From Kaistia granuli DSM 23481 (GTDB lineage: Bacteria > Pseudomonadota > Alphaproteobacteria > Rhizobiales > Kaistiaceae): 64,000 nucleotides of DNA. Positions 10,921 to 28,020 of this stretch are shown here, piece after piece. A program made the position numbers and the translations under genes. The stretch is from the NCBI RefSeq assembly GCF_000380505.1, contig NZ_AQYH01000003.1:62001-126000 (forward strand). Reading direction: 5' to 3'. How positions within the stretch are numbered: the stretch's first letter is position 1; each line of letters opens with the position of its first letter. The notes under the pieces were generated by a model. It made no database searches. It was not told the origin of the DNA and worked only from the letters and a program-made list of their open reading frames with translations.

Positions 10921-10996
10921 TCCGCGATAGCTCAGTTGGTAGAGCAGGTGACTGTTAATCACCGGGTCGTTGGTTCGAGTCCAACTCGCGGAGCCA
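10921..10996 (+). tRNA. tRNA-Asn (GTT), copy 1
   Basis: A 76-base cloverleaf with encoded CCA. Acceptor stem TCCGCGA pairs with TCGCGGA, the anticodon loop is CTGTTAA with GTT at 10954-10956, and the T arm contains GGTTCGAGTCC. It is identical to the copy at 11091-11166. Confidence 0.98.
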
Positions 10997-11090: not shown

Positions 11091-11166
11091 TCCGCGATAG
11101 CTCAGTTGGTAGAGCAGGTGACTGTTAATCACCGGGTCGTTGGTTCGAGTCCAACTCGCGGAGCCA
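11091..11166 (+). tRNA. tRNA-Asn (GTT), copy 2
   Basis: This copy is base-for-base identical to the tRNA-Asn at 10921-10996, including the encoded CCA and the preceding ACGCTGT. Because the first copy has its own terminator, this one may need a separate promoter or read-through. Confidence 0.98.
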
Positions 11167-15216: not shown

Positions 15217-15412
15217 CGTCGGTTCCCCCGATGGACCCCAGGTCCAGGGGGATGAAATGGGAATTCGGTACGGAATGACCCTCTACGGGGTTCCAAGTCC
15301 GAAGCTGCCCCCGCAACTGTAAGCGGCGAGCGACCTCGCGATGGCCACTGGGAAACCGGGAAGGCGTCGAGGAAGCAGCGACCCGCGAGCCAGGAGACCA
15401 GCCAGCGCCTCA
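15217..15412 (+). promoter_or_regulatory. Cobalamin riboswitch
   Basis: The conserved core is plain: the GCTGCCCCCGCAACTGTAAG box (15304-15323), GCCACTGGGAAACCGGGAAG (from about 15344), and GCGAGCCAGGAGACCAGCC near the 3' end (about 15386-15404). It lies 40 bases before cbtB and would repress the cobalt uptake and cobalamin operon when adenosylcobalamin is abundant. The sequence following it, up to the GGAGACGCT ribosome site, is the likely expression platform. Confidence 0.95.
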
Positions 15413-17975: not shown

Positions 17976-20900
17976 ATGCATCTCGTTGCCGGCGAAATGG
18001 AGCGGATCGACGATGGCGGCAGCGCCATCGATCTCGACCAGTCGCCTGGCGACATCATCATCCTGTCGGCAGCCGATACGGAGCTCGCCGCCTTTGCGGC
18101 GGCCTTTGCCGGCGCACCAGAAGGGCCGTCGCTGCGACTCGCCAATCTGATGCAGCTGACGCATCCCTATTCGGTCGATCTCTATCTCGAAAAGACGGTC
18201 GCCAAGGCGAAGCTCGTCTTCATCCGCATGATGGGTGGCGTCGGCTACTGGCCCTACGGGCTGGAGGCGATCCGCGCGCTCTCCCGCGCCGGCAGGCCTG
18301 AGATCGCCGTCGTCCCTGGTGAGGATCGTTGGGATCCGGCCCTCGAGGCCTATTCGACCGTCGCGCCCGCGATCGCGCATCGGCTCTGGCGCTATTGCGC
18401 CGAGGGCGGCGCGGTAAATATCGGCCGCGCGCTCGCCTATACCAGACACGTCGTCGGTGAGGGCGAAGCGCCGCCGGAGCCGCAGGTGTTGCCCGAGGTC
18501 GGCTTCTATCGGCCGGGCGAAGGCGTCGTCGCGGACGCGCTGGGGCCGCAGGACACCGGCCGGCCGGTGGCCTTCCTCACCTTCTACCGCTCGGTCATCC
18601 CCGGCGGCTCGACCGAACCGGTCGACGCGCTCGTCGAGGCGCTCGATCGCGAAGGCATCGCGACGGTGGCGATCTTCGCGTCCAGCCTGAAGAACGAGGC
18701 CGCAGCGGCTTTCATCGAGCAGGCCTTCGATGCGCTGGATCCCGCCATCGTCCTCAACGCCACCGCCTTCGCCATCTCGCGCCCCGGGCGGGCGCATGAG
18801 CCGACCGTGCTCGACCGCGCCGGCAGGCCGGTGCTGCAAATCGTCTTCGCCGGCACGAGCCGCGAAGCGTGGCTTGAATCCACGCGCGGTCTCGGCCCGC
18901 GCGATCTGATCATGAATGTCGTGCTGCCGGAGGTGGATGGCCGCATTTTGACCCGCGCTGTCTCCTTCAAGGAGCAGGTCGAAAGCGACGGCCGGACGGA
19001 CAGCCGCATCGTCGTCTACCGCGCTGACCGTGAACGGATCGCCTTCGTCGCGGCGCAGGCGGCGAACTGGGTGCGGCTTGCCGCGAAGGGGCCGGCCGAC
19101 CGCAAGGTCGCGCTCGTCCTCTCCAACTATCCCGACCGTGACGGCCGCCTCGCCAACGGCGTCGGCCTCGACACGCCGGAAAGCGCCGCCCGCATCGCCA
19201 TCGCCATGAATGGCGCCGGCTACGCGCTCGACGGCTTTCCGGAGACGGGCAGGGCGCTGATGGACCTGCTGCTCTCCGGCCCGACCAACGCGCTGGCGAA
19301 GGGGATGGAGCCGTTGAGCGAGGGTTCCGTTCCTTCACCTCTCCCTGAGGGAGAGGTCGGCCCGCAGGGCCGGGTGAGGGTTTACGGACTATCCGAAGAG
19401 GACACGGATGCGATATCGGGTGTGGCGACCGCTGAGTGGATACAGCCCTCTCCGGCGCGTGCCCTAAACCCTCACCCGCCGGCTTCGCCGTCGACCTCTC
19501 CCTCAGGGAGAGGTGAAGGAACGCCTGACTCGCCAAGGGCGAGCGATAACGCCGAGGGCGCAGTTCTTTCGCTTGCCGACTACCGCGCCTTCCATGACGC
19601 GCTGCCGCAATCCGTCCGCGATGGACTCGCCGAACGCTGGGGCGAGCCCGACGCCGACCCATTCTTCGCCGAAGGCGCCTTCCGGCTCGCGATCCATCGT
19701 TTCGGCAATGTCGTCGTCGGCATCCAGCCGGCGCGGGGCTATGGCATCGATCCGAAGGCGACCTATCACGATCCAGACCTCGTGCCGCCGCACCACTATC
19801 TCGCCTTTCATGCGTGGCTGCGGACGCAGTTCGGCGTCGATGCCATCGTGCATGTCGGCAAGCACGGCAATCTCGAATGGCTGCCCGGCAAGGCGCTCGG
19901 CCTCTCGAATGCCTGCTGGCCGGAAGTCGTGCTCGGCCCGACGCCGCTGATCTATCCCTTCATCGTCAACGATCCCGGCGAGGGCGCGCAGGCGAAGCGC
20001 CGCGCTTCGGCCGTCGTCGTCGACCATCTGATGCCTGCCTTGACGCGGGCCGAGGCGCATGGCGCCTTCGCCGAGATCGAGACGCTGATCGACGAGTACC
20101 AGCTGGCGCTGGGCGCCGATCCGCGCCGCCGCGACCATCTGGAGCGCGAGATCTTCGATCTGGCGGTCAAGCACGGCATCGATCGCGACCTCGGCATCGG
20201 GGTCGACGCCGACAGCGGCAGCGCGCTCCGCGCCATCGACGCGCATCTCTGCGAGATCAAGGAACTGCAAATTCGCGACGGACTGCACATCTTCGGCAGT
20301 TCGCCGGAGAACGAGCACCGCCTCGACACGCTGATTGCCATCGCGCGTGTGCCGCGCTCCGGCGGTCGTCCCGAGGATCAATCGCTGCATCGGGCGATCG
20401 CCGCCGATCTCGGCCTCGACGGCTTTGATCCTCTGGCCTGCGATCTGTCGGCAGACTGGGAGGGATCTCGTCCCGCGGCGCTCACTCTCCTGACCGATGA
20501 ACCCTGGCGCACTCATGGCGACACGGTCGAGCGGATAGAGATCCTGGCCAAGCGGGCCGTCGCTGCCGAGCTTCTCCCTCCCCCTTGTGGGGAGGGTTGG
20601 GGAGGGGGAATGCCGGGCGAAGAGCTCAATCCTGAGGAAGCGTCAAATCCTGAGGGATCCCCCTCTCTCCAACTCTCCCCCACAAGGGGGGAGAGAGCTC
20701 TGCCGGCGCCCGGCCCCGCCATAGCTCCCGTCCTCGACTGGATCCTGCGGGAACTGGCCCCGGCGCTGGACCGCTGTGGCGTAGACGAGATAGCCGCCGT
20801 ACTGACGGCGCTCAATGGCCGCTTCGTGCCGCCCGGTCCCTCGGGCGCGCCGTCACGCGGCCGGCCGGACGTGCTGCCGACGGGCAAGAACTTCTATTCC

Positions 20901-22040
20901 GTCGATACCCGCGCGGTTCCCACGGCCGCCGCCTGGCGGATCGGCAAGCAGGCCGCCGAGGCGCTCGTGCTGCGCTACATGCAGGACGAGGGCGAGTGGC
21001 CGCGCTCCGTGGCGATCTCCGCCTGGGGCACCGCCAACATGCGCACCGGCGGCGACGACATCGCGCAGGTGCTCGCTCTGATCGGCGCCGAGCCGGTCTG
21101 GGAAGCAGGCACCGGCCGCGTCACCGGGTTTCGCGTCCTGACGCTCTCGGAGCTGAAGCGGCCGCGCGTCGATGTCACGCTGCGGATTTCCGGCATGTTC
21201 CGCGACGCCTTCCCGGAACAGATCGACCTGATCGATTCCGCCATCCGCGCCGTCGCCGCGCGTGACGAGCCGGCCGATGCCAATCCCATCGCCGCAGCCC
21301 ATGGCGCGGGGCAGGACCTCGCCCGCATCTTCGGCTCGAAGCCCGGTTCCTATGGCGCCGGCCTGCAGGCGATGATCGACGAGAGAATCTGGGACAGCCG
21401 CGCGGATTTGGCCGACGCCTTCCTCGCCTGGTCGAGCTTCGCCTATGGCGGCGGCGCCGAGGGCGAGGCGGCCGGCGACCGGCTGAAGGCGCGGCTCGCC
21501 GCCACCGACGCCGTCCTGCACAACCAGGACAATCGCGAGCACGACATCCTCGACAGCGACGACTACTACCAGTTCCAGGGCGGTCTCGCGGCGACGATCG
21601 AAACGCTGAAGGGCGCCGCGCCCCGGCTCTATCACGGTGATCATTCCCGTCCCGAGACCCCCGTCGTCCGGCCACTGGCGGAGGAGATCGGCCGCGTCGT
21701 GCGCGGGCGGGCGATCAATCCGAAATGGATCGCCGGCTGCATGCGGCACGGCTACAAGGGCGCCTTCGAGATGGCGGCGACGCTCGACTATCTCTTCGCC
21801 TTCGCCGCGACGACGCACGCGGTCGGCGACCACCATTTCGATGCGCTCTACGACGCCTATATTGCCGATGATGAGGTGCGCGCCTTCATCGCCGACGCCA
21901 ATGAACCCGCGCTCGTCGAAATGGCGGACCGCTTTCTCGAAGCCATGGAGCGCGGCCTCTGGTCGCCGCGCGCCAACAGCGCCTATCAACGGCTGGCAGC
22001 ACTCGCTTCCCGCCGCGACGCCCGAAAGGAATTCGCATGA
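17976..22040 (+). CDS. cobN: Cobaltochelatase subunit CobN, with two in-frame repeat insertions
   Basis: Protein of 1354 residues, the large subunit of the aerobic ATP-dependent cobaltochelatase that inserts Co2+ into hydrogenobyrinic acid a,c-diamide with CobS/CobT. Chelatase blocks are readable: VHVGKHGNLEWLPGKALGLS (about residue 625), NDPGEGAQAKRRASAVVVDH (about 665), ISAWGTANMRTGGDDIAQVL (about 1015) and HDILDSDDYYQFQGGLAATI (about 1190). It exceeds the usual ~1250-1280 residues because palindromic repeats at 19331-19520 and 20568-20700 add about 63 and 44 Pro/Gly/Glu-rich residues without breaking the frame. The stop overlaps cobO (ATGA). Confidence 0.96.
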   Translation: MHLVAGEMERIDDGGSAIDLDQSPGDIIILSAADTELAAFAAAFAGAPEGPSLRLANLMQLTHPYSVDLYLEKTVAKAKLVFIRMMGGVGYWPYGLEAIRALSRAGRPEIAVVPGEDRWDPALEAYSTVAPAIAHRLWRYCAEGGAVNIGRALAYTRHVVGEGEAPPEPQVLPEVGFYRPGEGVVADALGPQDTGRPVAFLTFYRSVIPGGSTEPVDALVEALDREGIATVAIFASSLKNEAAAAFIEQAFDALDPAIVLNATAFAISRPGRAHEPTVLDRAGRPVLQIVFAGTSREAWLESTRGLGPRDLIMNVVLPEVDGRILTRAVSFKEQVESDGRTDSRIVVYRADRERIAFVAAQAANWVRLAAKGPADRKVALVLSNYPDRDGRLANGVGLDTPESAARIAIAMNGAGYALDGFPETGRALMDLLLSGPTNALAKGMEPLSEGSVPSPLPEGEVGPQGRVRVYGLSEEDTDAISGVATAEWIQPSPARALNPHPPASPSTSPSGRGEGTPDSPRASDNAEGAVLSLADYRAFHDALPQSVRDGLAERWGEPDADPFFAEGAFRLAIHRFGNVVVGIQPARGYGIDPKATYHDPDLVPPHHYLAFHAWLRTQFGVDAIVHVGKHGNLEWLPGKALGLSNACWPEVVLGPTPLIYPFIVNDPGEGAQAKRRASAVVVDHLMPALTRAEAHGAFAEIETLIDEYQLALGADPRRRDHLEREIFDLAVKHGIDRDLGIGVDADSGSALRAIDAHLCEIKELQIRDGLHIFGSSPENEHRLDTLIAIARVPRSGGRPEDQSLHRAIAADLGLDGFDPLACDLSADWEGSRPAALTLLTDEPWRTHGDTVERIEILAKRAVAAELLPPPCGEGWGGGMPGEELNPEEASNPEGSPSLQLSPTRGERALPAPGPAIAPVLDWILRELAPALDRCGVDEIAAVLTALNGRFVPPGPSGAPSRGRPDVLPTGKNFYSVDTRAVPTAAAWRIGKQAAEALVLRYMQDEGEWPRSVAISAWGTANMRTGGDDIAQVLALIGAEPVWEAGTGRVTGFRVLTLSELKRPRVDVTLRISGMFRDAFPEQIDLIDSAIRAVAARDEPADANPIAAAHGAGQDLARIFGSKPGSYGAGLQAMIDERIWDSRADLADAFLAWSSFAYGGGAEGEAAGDRLKARLAATDAVLHNQDNREHDILDSDDYYQFQGGLAATIETLKGAAPRLYHGDHSRPETPVVRPLAEEIGRVVRGRAINPKWIAGCMRHGYKGAFEMAATLDYLFAFAATTHAVGDHHFDALYDAYIADDEVRAFIADANEPALVEMADRFLEAMERGLWSPRANSAYQRLAALASRRDARKEFA
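19331..19520. repeat. Palindromic repeat element inside cobN (element 1)
   Basis: The left arm CCTTCACCTCTCCCTGAGG (from 19332) and right arm CCTCAGGGAGAGGTGAAGG (to 19519) are exact inverse complements; the adjoining GGGTGAGGGTTTA and TAAACCCTCACCC also pair. Each arm is itself a hairpin (CTCTCCCTGAGGGAGAG). The element is translated as about residues 452-515 of CobN, rich in Pro, Ser and Glu. A related single unit lies after valS at 37714-37744. Confidence 0.85.
20568..20700. repeat. Palindromic repeat element inside cobN (element 2)
   Basis: The left arm GAGCTTCTCCCTCCCCCTTG and the right arm CAAGGGGGGAGAGAGCTC are imperfect inverse complements, each with an internal CCCTCC/GGAGGG-type hairpin. 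The element is translated as about residues 865-909 of CobN and keeps the frame open. A similar arm pair is at 4122-4164. Confidence 0.8.
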
Positions 22041-25125: not shown

Positions 25126-25992
25126 TCACGAGCCGCCGAGGCGGGCGCGCTCGGCGGCGAGCGTCTCGATCGCTTCCGGCAGCGACGGTCCGGCGCAGAT
25201 CGTGAGCCGGCCGGGCAGGGTGATGCGGCGATCGGCCGGGTAGAGTTCGCGCAAGGCCGGATGGGCGAGCAGCGCGCTGCCCTGGTCGGCCGCCACGACA
25301 TGCGGATCGGCGACGACAAGGAGGTCCGGCTTGCCGGTGACGATGCGCTCCAGCGGCACGAAACCGCCGGTCTTGCCGGCGAGCGCGCCGCCCATGTCAG
25401 CGAACCCCGCCAGGCGGAGCAGTTCGCCGGTCAGCGTGTTCTGGCCGGTGACGTAGCCCCGGCGCTGATAGACGGCGACGGTGGGCTCGGCCCCCGCCGG
25501 CGCCGCCGCGGCGGCCCTGGCCCGCGCCGCCTCGATTCGGGCGATGAGGTCGTCGCCGCGGTCGGGATGGCCGATCAGGGTGGCGACGTCGCGAATCTGC
25601 GCGATCGAATCGTCGATCGTCTTCGCGGTCTCGAGCTCGACGACGGTATAGCCGAGCCGCTTGAGCAGCGATCGCGTCTCCCGCTTGGTGAACCGGCCGG
25701 CAAGCACGAGGTCGGGCTTGCGCTCGATGACGGTCTCGGCGGATCCGGCATCATGCGGATAGGCCTTCGCCTGCTCGGCGAGATAGGAATAGGCTGGATC
25801 GGTCGCATAGAGCGAAAGCGCTGCGATCTGGCCGGGATCGGCGAGCGCCAGCAGCAACTGGTCGGCACAGGCGTTGATCGAGACGATCCGCTGCGGCGCG
25901 GCCGAAGAGGCAGGAGCGGGCGCAGCCAGCCCAAGGCTACTTAGTGCCCAAGCTGCCACAATCATACCGAACCTGTTGACCCACGCGCGCAT
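25126..25992 (-). CDS. btuF: Periplasmic vitamin B12-binding protein (BtuF-like)
   Basis: Protein of 288 residues. It has an N-terminal signal peptide (FGMIVAAWALSSLGLAAPAP, then ASSAAP) and a class III helical-backbone binding protein fold: RIVSINACADQLLLALADPG, DLVLAGRFTKRETRSLLKRL and a C-terminal lobe with GGFVPLERIVTGKPDLLVVA. Divergent from btuB and beside cobD, it most likely delivers cobalamin or cobinamide to BtuCD. The frame is open upstream past 25992, but only the start at 25992 places the signal sequence correctly. Confidence 0.88.
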   Translation of the reverse strand: MRAWVNRFGMIVAAWALSSLGLAAPAPASSAAPQRIVSINACADQLLLALADPGQIAALSLYATDPAYSYLAEQAKAYPHDAGSAETVIERKPDLVLAGRFTKRETRSLLKRLGYTVVELETAKTIDDSIAQIRDVATLIGHPDRGDDLIARIEAARARAAAAAPAGAEPTVAVYQRRGYVTGQNTLTGELLRLAGFADMGGALAGKTGGFVPLERIVTGKPDLLVVADPHVVAADQGSALLAHPALRELYPADRRITLPGRLTICAGPSLPEAIETLAAERARLGGS

Positions 25993-26018
25993 GGGGGGCG
26001 CTCCCGCTTGCAGTGACC

Positions 26019-26073
26019 TGGGTCCTCGTCTACCGCTTCTGAAGCGAACGGCAAAGCCGCCTCGCAGGACCCG
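26019..26073 (+). promoter_or_regulatory. Structured leader between btuF and btuB
   Basis: GGGTCCT (26020-26026) pairs with AGGACCC (26066-26072) and encloses two small hairpins, CGCTT/AAGCG (26034-26046) and CGGC/GCCG (26049-26059): a compact three-way junction. It lies 55 bases before the btuB start. It lacks the cobalamin-riboswitch core seen at 15304, so any ligand or regulator is unknown. Confidence 0.45.
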
Positions 26074-26127
26074 GTACACAAAGGTGACGGGTGCGATGAC
26101 CAGATCGATCCAAACGAGGTCTGCCTG

Positions 26128-28020
26128 ATGAAGTTCTTCGAACGGTGCCAGGGGCGCGCCGCTCTCTCCCTTTTCGTCACACTTCCAGTGGTTCTGGCGG
26201 CCGATTGTGCCCGGGCAGACCAGCTCGACGACATCGTCGTCACCGCCTATCGCGGTGCGACCGACATCGCCAAATCGGGCAGCGCGATCACCGTCATCCC
26301 CGGCGACAAGATCAACAATGCCTCGCCAGGCTCGCTCGTCGACGTGCTGCGCCAGGTGCCGGGCCTGACCGTCACCCAGTCCGGCGGCCCCGGCGGCACC
26401 ACCGAGGTCAGCATCCGCGGCGCCGAAGCCGGCCACACGCTGGTCATGATCGACGGCGTCCGCGTCAACGATCCGGCCAGCGCCCGCAATGCCTTCGACT
26501 TCGCCGTCTTCTCGCCGACCGATATCGAGCGCGTCGAGATCCTGCGCGGCCCGCAAAGCGCGCTCTACGGCTCGGATGCGATGGGCGGCGTCATCAACAT
26601 CATCACCCGCAAGCGCAAGGGGCCTGTGTCGATGACGGCCGGCGCCGAGGGTGGCAGCTACAGCACCTTCGCCGGCAATGCCGCCATCGGCGGCAGCGTC
26701 GGCCCGGTCAGCCTCTCGGTCAGCGGCACCATCTTCGACACCAACGGCTTTTCACGCGTCGGCGACCGCGACAATGGCGAGGCGGACGGCACCCAGAAAT
26801 TCGCCGGAACCGCGCGCGGCAGCTATGAGTCGGGCGAGGGGCAGGGCTTCAGCTTCGCCGTCACCGCCTACCGCCAGGAATCGGACGTCGAGAAGGGCTC
26901 CAAGCCGACCGACGACCTGCCCGGCTACGAGCGCGACCGAGATGTCGTCTCCGGCTTCGGCCGCTTCGATTTCGAGGCCTTCGAGGGCAAGCTCAACAAC
27001 CAGATCACCTTCTTCGGCGCCGAGACGACTAGCGCCTATATCGAGCCCGTGCCGCGTACGACGGATTCGCGCGGCACCAATTACGGCGTCGAGTACCAGA
27101 GCACCCTCGACATGGGGCAGGCGGGCACCCTGATCTGGGGCGCGCGAGCGGAAAAGGAAGGCGGCACGCAGAGCGTAACGCCTGTCCCGCTCAAGCCTTC
27201 AGGCTTTGACGACGAACGCACGCTGCTGGCCATCTTTGCGTTGCAGCAGTTCACCCTGTTCGACCGGCTCAACCTGTCGCTCGGCGGGCGCTATGACGAG
27301 GATGTCGACGGCCAGGGCTTTCTGACGGGACGCGCGACGGCGGCCTATCTGATCGACGAGAGCGGCACGAAGCTGCGCGGCAGCTTCGGTAACGCTGCCA
27401 AGCGGCCGACGATGTTCCAGCTGTTCGATGCGCAATTCGGCAATCCGGATCTCATCGACGAGGAAAGCTGGGGCGGCGACATCGGCATCGACCAGGAACT
27501 GTTCGACGGCCGGCTGACGTTCTCGGCGACCGGCTTCTACAACCGCTTCACCAATCTGATCAGCTACTCGCTCGCGACAAACGACTATATCAACATCACC
27601 AACGCCGAAACGTCCGGTCTGGAATTCTCGGCCGATGCGATCCTCTGGCCGTCCGTTCTGAGGGCGACAGCCTCCTACACCTATCTGAACGCCATCAATC
27701 TCGACACCGACCTGCCGCTGTCGCGCCGGCCGGAAAATAGCGGCTCGCTGACGCTGACCTATACCGGGATCGAGAATTTCGAGTTCGGCGCGACGGCGAT
27801 CTTTGTCGGCGACCGTTTCAACAACGATCCGGCGAAAGCGGCCCAATTGGTCCCGCTCGAGAGCTACACCAAGATCGACCTCAGCGCTTCCTACCGGCTC
27901 AATCCGCAGACGACGCTCTATGCCCGGCTCGAGAACCTGACCGATGTCGAATACCAGGACGCCTTCGGTTACAACAATGCCGGCCGCTCGGGCTATGTCG
28001 GATTGAGATGGACGCATTGA
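26128..28020 (+). CDS. btuB: TonB-dependent outer-membrane receptor, BtuB-like
   Basis: Protein of 630 residues. After a signal peptide (ALSLFVTLPVVLAADCARA) comes a TonB box DDIVVTA, closely like the enteric BtuB box. The plug domain shows VDVLRQVPGLTVTQSGGPGG, IRGAEAGHTLVMIDGVRVND and RVEILRGPQSALYGSDAMGG followed by VINIITRK; the rest is a beta-barrel ending in GRSGYVGLRWTH. The neighbours btuC, btuD and divergent btuF support corrinoid as substrate. GAGGT at 26116-26120 is the ribosome site. Substrate is inferred from context. Confidence 0.92.
   Translation: MKFFERCQGRAALSLFVTLPVVLAADCARADQLDDIVVTAYRGATDIAKSGSAITVIPGDKINNASPGSLVDVLRQVPGLTVTQSGGPGGTTEVSIRGAEAGHTLVMIDGVRVNDPASARNAFDFAVFSPTDIERVEILRGPQSALYGSDAMGGVINIITRKRKGPVSMTAGAEGGSYSTFAGNAAIGGSVGPVSLSVSGTIFDTNGFSRVGDRDNGEADGTQKFAGTARGSYESGEGQGFSFAVTAYRQESDVEKGSKPTDDLPGYERDRDVVSGFGRFDFEAFEGKLNNQITFFGAETTSAYIEPVPRTTDSRGTNYGVEYQSTLDMGQAGTLIWGARAEKEGGTQSVTPVPLKPSGFDDERTLLAIFALQQFTLFDRLNLSLGGRYDEDVDGQGFLTGRATAAYLIDESGTKLRGSFGNAAKRPTMFQLFDAQFGNPDLIDEESWGGDIGIDQELFDGRLTFSATGFYNRFTNLISYSLATNDYINITNAETSGLEFSADAILWPSVLRATASYTYLNAINLDTDLPLSRRPENSGSLTLTYTGIENFEFGATAIFVGDRFNNDPAKAAQLVPLESYTKIDLSASYRLNPQTTLYARLENLTDVEYQDAFGYNNAGRSGYVGLRWTH

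Follow-up and report, generated by a model that had tools for sequence, protein, structure and literature searches.

The btuF/btuB locus of Kaistia granuli

The window, a stretch of 64,000 nucleotides that forms a portion of contig C3 in the 4.77 Mb assembly, carries a cobalamin cluster with btuC, btuD and the divergent genes btuF and btuB (Table 1). The NCBIfam matches behind these four names all lie under the curated cut-offs. The closest named relatives of the BtuB protein are those of Kaistia adipata (83%) and K. defluvii (78%), and the cob gene names used for the cluster are those we presume from the translations. The genes read as cbtAB and cob lie behind a canonical cobalamin riboswitch, which the Rfam scan of the window recovered with 121.8 bits, confirming the riboswitch that a preliminary description had placed near 15217 for cbtB-cob. 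As the same description had stated, the btuF/btuB spacer has no canonical B12 riboswitch, and no Rfam family was found there even at E<=10.

Table 1. Features of the cobalamin cluster and of the btuF/btuB spacer, in positions of the window
Feature	Position	Strand	Remarks
Canonical cobalamin riboswitch, RF00174	15203-15420		121.8 bits
btuF, periplasmic binding protein	25126-25992	-	PF01497; weak match to BtuF NF002894
btuF/btuB spacer	25993-26127		135 bases
Promoter-like -35 part, TTGCAG	26008-26013	+	TTGC-N18-YTA in 15/17 homologous leaders
Promoter-like -10 part, TACCGC	26031-26036	+	same spacing in 15/17 rows
Hairpin H1	26044-26065	+	putative 5' end of the RNA
Hairpin H2	26067-26094	+	outer helix 26069-26073/26088-26092; inner CAC/GUG 26077-26079/26084-26086
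Hairpin H3, CAGAUC with GGUCUG	26101-26123	+	over the btuB ribosome-binding site
Shine-Dalgarno-like GAGG of btuB	26116-26119	+	last two bases paired in H3; 8 bases before ATG
ATG of btuB	26128	+
btuB, TonB-dependent B12 receptor	26128-28020	+	best NCBIfam model TIGR01779, 278.9 bits, under curated cut-off; Pfam plug and barrel

An open frame that crosses the spacer in the btuF frame (25126-26556) was rejected as coding, since homologues differ there by one-base indels. Elsewhere in the cluster, cobN (17976-22040, plus strand) encodes a CobN with two in-frame repeat-like inserts, at 19328-19523 and at about 20577-20700; the first has 32-base perfect inverted repeats at its edges (19328-19359 and 19492-19523) and looks like a palindromic element translated inside the gene. 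The window also holds two tRNA genes (10921-10993 and 11091-11163), 170 bases apart and with equal Rfam scores, perhaps the result of a tandem duplication.

When folded on its own, the spacer is unremarkable on both strands (z -0.86 on the plus strand, where 40 of 200 shuffles did as well, and z -0.96 on the minus strand, where 33 of 200 did). Its minimum free energy fold contains the three-way junction that the preliminary description had drawn at 26019-26073 (here 26020-26072, plus strand). We rejected this junction because the spacer folds no better than shuffled sequences and the closing stem breaks in homologues. The nine closing pairs are complete in three of eight homologous spacers; L010 has lost one of them, L013 two, L015 four, L016 seven and L017 five. 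In addition, the two inner hairpins are not conserved pair for pair in the three of these eight rows that come from other genera. Part of the junction is shared with the promoter-like sequence and with the 5' arm of the conserved hairpin H2. Note that the conserved RNA described below starts inside this junction, takes one of its arms for H2 and reaches the btuB start codon on the 3' side. The general idea of a different regulatory RNA has survived, but the structure and coordinates proposed for it have not. Two pairings of an upstream CUCGU stretch, one with bases near the btuB start (in the A1 consensus fold) and one with ACGAGG of H3 (by eye), were also discarded, since both are lost in more distant spacers and the stretch lies upstream of the putative transcript start.

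A conserved structured element upstream of btuB

Comparison of homologous spacers identified a real conserved element on the btuB strand, made of a putative promoter (26008-26036) and a predicted leader (26044-26128). Five other genomes of the genus have a spacer that, edges included, shares 83-86% identity with that of the window, and three further genomes of the family contain parts of it. A covariance model built from homologous spacers (R1) was searched against 397 genomes of the order, a subset of a larger group, and added three members of the own family and four genomes of a second one. This search gave matches in 34 of the 397 genomes at E<=0.01, and among its weaker rows G157 and G047 were real. 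The matches L054, L055 and L057-L060 were rejected, as they have no btuF/btuB context; L061 and L062 were seen as alignment rows only, and L063-L068, like the rows lacking a locus, were left out of the inspection. The core model (R3), searched against 337 genomes, added two genomes of a third family. The R2 search of the class (385 genomes) produced two matches besides the window, both within long coding-like frames, which we judged to be chance. Altogether, 18 genomes from three families have the element: 12 of the 28 own-family genomes, 4 of the 5 from the second family and 2 from the third. Absences are not strict, since each search scores no more than a few candidates in a genome. In each of the 18, a BtuF match or frame adjoins the element and a BtuB-like frame lies next.

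In the genomes searched, the element is linked exclusively to btuB. The H2 pattern CCGGKACAC-N(3-6)-GTGACGG occurs in 15 of the 397 genomes of the order, once in each, with 14 sites at the btuB locus and 1 inside an open frame; the reversed pattern, used as a control, gave 6 matches in the same 397 genomes, so one chance match is expected. H2-like hairpins without H3 were seen at L052:1557-1615 (G303), which precedes a phosphatidylserine-decarboxylase-like frame, and at L143 (G097), and both are probably chance. In G005, which has no BtuB match, a remnant of the element (L102, minus strand, 1332-1388) lies upstream of a partial btuF match, with H1 kept, H2 altered and H3 gone.

Every row of the first two families has the TTGC-N18-YTA motif, and neither third-family row does. 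The motif looks like a weak promoter; a generic sigma-70 scan reported no promoter at this site. Its position would place the start of the btuB transcript at about 26042-26044, the foot of H1. This hairpin forms in all 12 folded sequences of the own family, the remnant L102 among them, and shows one both-sided change within the genus (C-G to U-A, in L014). Of three folded sequences from the second family, two have no H1 and one has a weak hairpin of 4 pairs.

H2 consists of five outer pairs, an internal loop of GUA against A (3 versus 1), an inner helix of three pairs and a small loop; the inner helix favoured by RNAalifold is shifted and has two pairs. Some relatives have a longer H3, with UCC/GGA added in 3 rows and UCG/CGA in 2, and the third pair of the extension is unformed in 6 of 11 rows. 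From H2 to the start codon there are 26-42 bases in 16 of 17 rows; G251 has no usable start codon after H3. In the second-family loci L050, L051 and L056, the linker between H2 and H3 can form a small hairpin of the GUUG/CAAC type, which the own family does not have.

Pairing was analysed in two alignments: A7, with 15 distinct sequences (L052 and G018, the latter identical to G017 there, were excluded), and A8, with 18 rows (A7 plus L141, L142 and the btuB-less remnant L102). In these alignments, which were fitted to the structure model, standard pairs occupy 223 of 223 cells of A7 and pairing is kept in 243 of 245 cells of A8. Changes on both sides of a pair affect 8 cells in A7 (shuffled mean 1.6; none of 500 shuffles reaches 8; slid partners give 0-1), 7 cells in a second test with 26075/26083 (mean 1.7; 0/500) and 6 cells in A8 (mean 1.2; 0/500). 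When the 26075/26083 pair is included, two slid versions reach 3 such cells, compared to 7. Note that most pairs of H2 and H3 are invariant and that only 2 pairs changed on both sides; as many did in 169 of 500 shuffles for A7, 194 for the second test and 87 for A8. The compensatory changes in homologous spacers on which the preliminary description had made its idea depend are present, with pairs kept through them. Thus, the outer pair of H2 (26069/26092) is G-C in 12 of the 18 rows, A-U in 3, G-U in 2 and C-G in 1, and one pair of H3 is U-G in 12, U-A in 3 and C-G in 2. Outside the ordinary helices, 26075 is correlated with 26083 (G-C in 15, U-G in 3) and 26074 with 26087 (G.A in 15, A.G in 2, G.G in 1). 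The A7 column pair 2-34 was dropped from R3 because the alignment of the second family is ambiguous there.

The non-Watson-Crick cells of A8, read on the btuB strand, are 19 G-U, 1 A-C and 1 other among the 245. Since G-U outnumbers A-C 19 to 1, the RNA is the btuB strand. The consensus fold has an energy of -18.7, compared to -4.7 (sd 2.2) for column shuffles within conservation classes, none of which was as good (0/300); this control is rough because neighbouring columns get separated. In partition functions of the core, nearly every outer pair of H2 has a probability of at least 0.7 in every row. For H3, the probability approaches 1 in the second family and in several relatives, and is about 0.25-0.55 in the five Kaistia rows (about 0.54 for the window core folded as a single sequence); a shifted GACC/GGUC register competes with it in the Kaistia sequences, in some of the five rows. 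This half-formed H3 may be the switch, or may reflect a weakness of the folding model.

The leader and the canonical cobalamin riboswitch at btuB

Few riboswitches are as widespread as those for cobalamin. BtuB was sought in 30 chosen genomes. None of the 15 family genomes without the element has a BtuB match at E<=1e-25 (G021, also without it, was left out); in two of these 15 (loci L099 and L101), btuF diverges from a BtuC-like frame. The remaining genomes gave 15 btuB-like places, all of them scanned with Rfam. One, in G189, has the new element at btuB and no RF00174. Of the 14 btuB-like loci without the element, which belong to other families, 13 carry RF00174 directly upstream in the same orientation; in the 11 loci measured, it precedes the first matched BtuB residue by 161-328 bases. 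The exception, G037 (L149/L110), has divergent btuF and btuB, no element, and RF00174 1.15 kb upstream with btuF antisense in between. Since this copy is on the btuB strand, past the 3' end of btuF, read-through from it to btuB would be antisense to btuF.

The genome of the window has four RF00174 copies away from btuB, one of them in the window. The others lie at G000:C20:51903-52129, C20:95274-95499 and C7:279888-280098; the frames after the first and the last of these we take to be metE and ribonucleotide reductase. The new leader and the canonical riboswitch occur in a complementary way across the genomes searched, so that btuB seems to have either the one or the other. The best reading of this pattern would be that the leader replaced the B12 riboswitch there.

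The models of RF00174 and its clan CL00101 gave no match in the spacer, or over the element in 14 homologous loci, at E<=10, and none in L141, L142 and L102 at the Rfam gathering cut-off. A significant match to a known cobalamin riboswitch class was what the preliminary description had named as speaking against its idea. Nor did any other known class appear: no Rfam family matched the element in the window or in the 14 homologous loci. A canonical core like that of the riboswitch in the window was not detected in the element by the clan covariance models and is absent by eye. The leader resembles RF00174, the cobalamin (AdoCbl) riboswitch, in being a leader of btuB, with the same gene position as the 13 canonical copies of related families. 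However, RF00174 has 189 model positions, compared to about 85 nt proposed for the leader, which also has another set of helices and carries the Shine-Dalgarno sequence in its last hairpin.

SAM-II and preQ1 riboswitches are compact translational riboswitches. As occurs with them, the leader is short, lies near the start codon and has the Shine-Dalgarno sequence in its last helix; unlike them, it has no Rfam match to such families and no established pseudoknot. A cis-acting leader that covers the Shine-Dalgarno sequence is a kind already known. This structured RNA leader, however, appears to be undescribed within Rfam and the open-licence literature; no description of it was found in searches of that literature, including PMC2864571, PMC10043782 and PMC11109978.

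A candidate translational switch and its alternatives

We infer the transcript start, translational control, the ligand and the direction of switching from the sequences. Our preferred reading, in which we have moderate confidence, takes 26044-26128 as a cis-acting leader within the btuB mRNA which works as a translational switch, probably a B12-responsive riboswitch. Given the transcript start proposed above, it is a conserved structured leader of a regulated mRNA, as riboswitches are. Transcription would begin just before H1, H2 would be a small, sequence-conserved receiving element, and H3 would hide the btuB Shine-Dalgarno sequence. Whatever binds H2 would make H3 more or less favoured relative to an open or alternative fold, and would in this way set ribosome entry at btuB. 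Most likely, H2 and its flanks would be a small ligand-sensing RNA, that is, a riboswitch. Since the leader occupies the position that the canonical cobalamin riboswitch has in related families, the gene and the replacement suggest B12 status as the most likely signal.

More tentatively, H2 and its flanks could represent a compact corrinoid-sensing class that shares no origin with the known cobalamin riboswitches. Within one alphaproteobacterial order, this class would have displaced RF00174 in the control of btuB in a few families, and its aptamer would be under about 65 nt. If this is true, nature would have found a second, independent RNA solution to B12 sensing, and direct binding of a corrinoid or a precursor by the leader would define a new small aptamer class. 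If the leader answers another signal, B12 uptake in these bacteria would be tuned to it. Either reading is testable with an RNA of about 85 nt. The smaller leader at btuB and the canonical copies elsewhere in the same genome also offer a natural experiment in RNA-regulator replacement.

A cis-acting leader of another type, in which H2 serves as the binding site of a protein or of a trans-acting small RNA and senses no ligand of its own, with H3 as the translation gate, seems to us unlikely but deserving of serious attention. The pair-keeping changes are the same evidence for it as for the riboswitch, H2 has a small size of 28 bases, few of its unpaired positions are invariant, and small RNAs commonly control outer-membrane receptor mRNAs. 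What speaks against it, although not decisively, is that the searched genomes have one site each, at one gene, which is unusual for a shared RNA-binding protein, and that the locus appears to replace a riboswitch.

The preliminary description had also considered an operator in a divergent promoter. According to this improbable reading, the element would contain one or more DNA operators of a transcription factor governing btuF and btuB jointly, with the hairpins as operator arms. The divergent spacer is indeed there, H2 is an imperfect inverted repeat and the promoter-like TTGC-N18-YTA adjoins it, but the observations fit an operator worse than an RNA. The symmetric half-sites and lack of strand preference of a dimeric regulator's operator are not seen: the arms are asymmetric, with 3 versus 1 bases between the helices in the aligned A8 rows, and the excess of G-U over A-C assigns the element to one strand. 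Moreover, H3 falls on the Shine-Dalgarno sequence, the distance from H2 to the start codon is kept in all rows but one, and the H2 pattern has no second copy at another promoter in the 397 genomes.

We regard as very improbable that the leader is a heavily reduced descendant of the canonical cobalamin riboswitch that has lost most of the aptamer: it has the same gene and place, and its 3' end GAGGUCUGCC is similar by eye to the canonical GGAGACCUGCC, but the missing core and the absence of any CL00101 member at E<=10, in the window element and the 14 homologous loci alike, argue against this origin. Hardly credible is an ordinary spacer kept by recent descent only, as its unremarkable fold and an identity within the genus like that of the coding flanks might suggest, since this is contradicted by conservation across families, H2 and H3 being recognisable in three of them (with second-family BtuF about 46-51% identical), as well as by a consensus fold that outscores all its rough column shuffles and by the decay of the element where btuB is absent.
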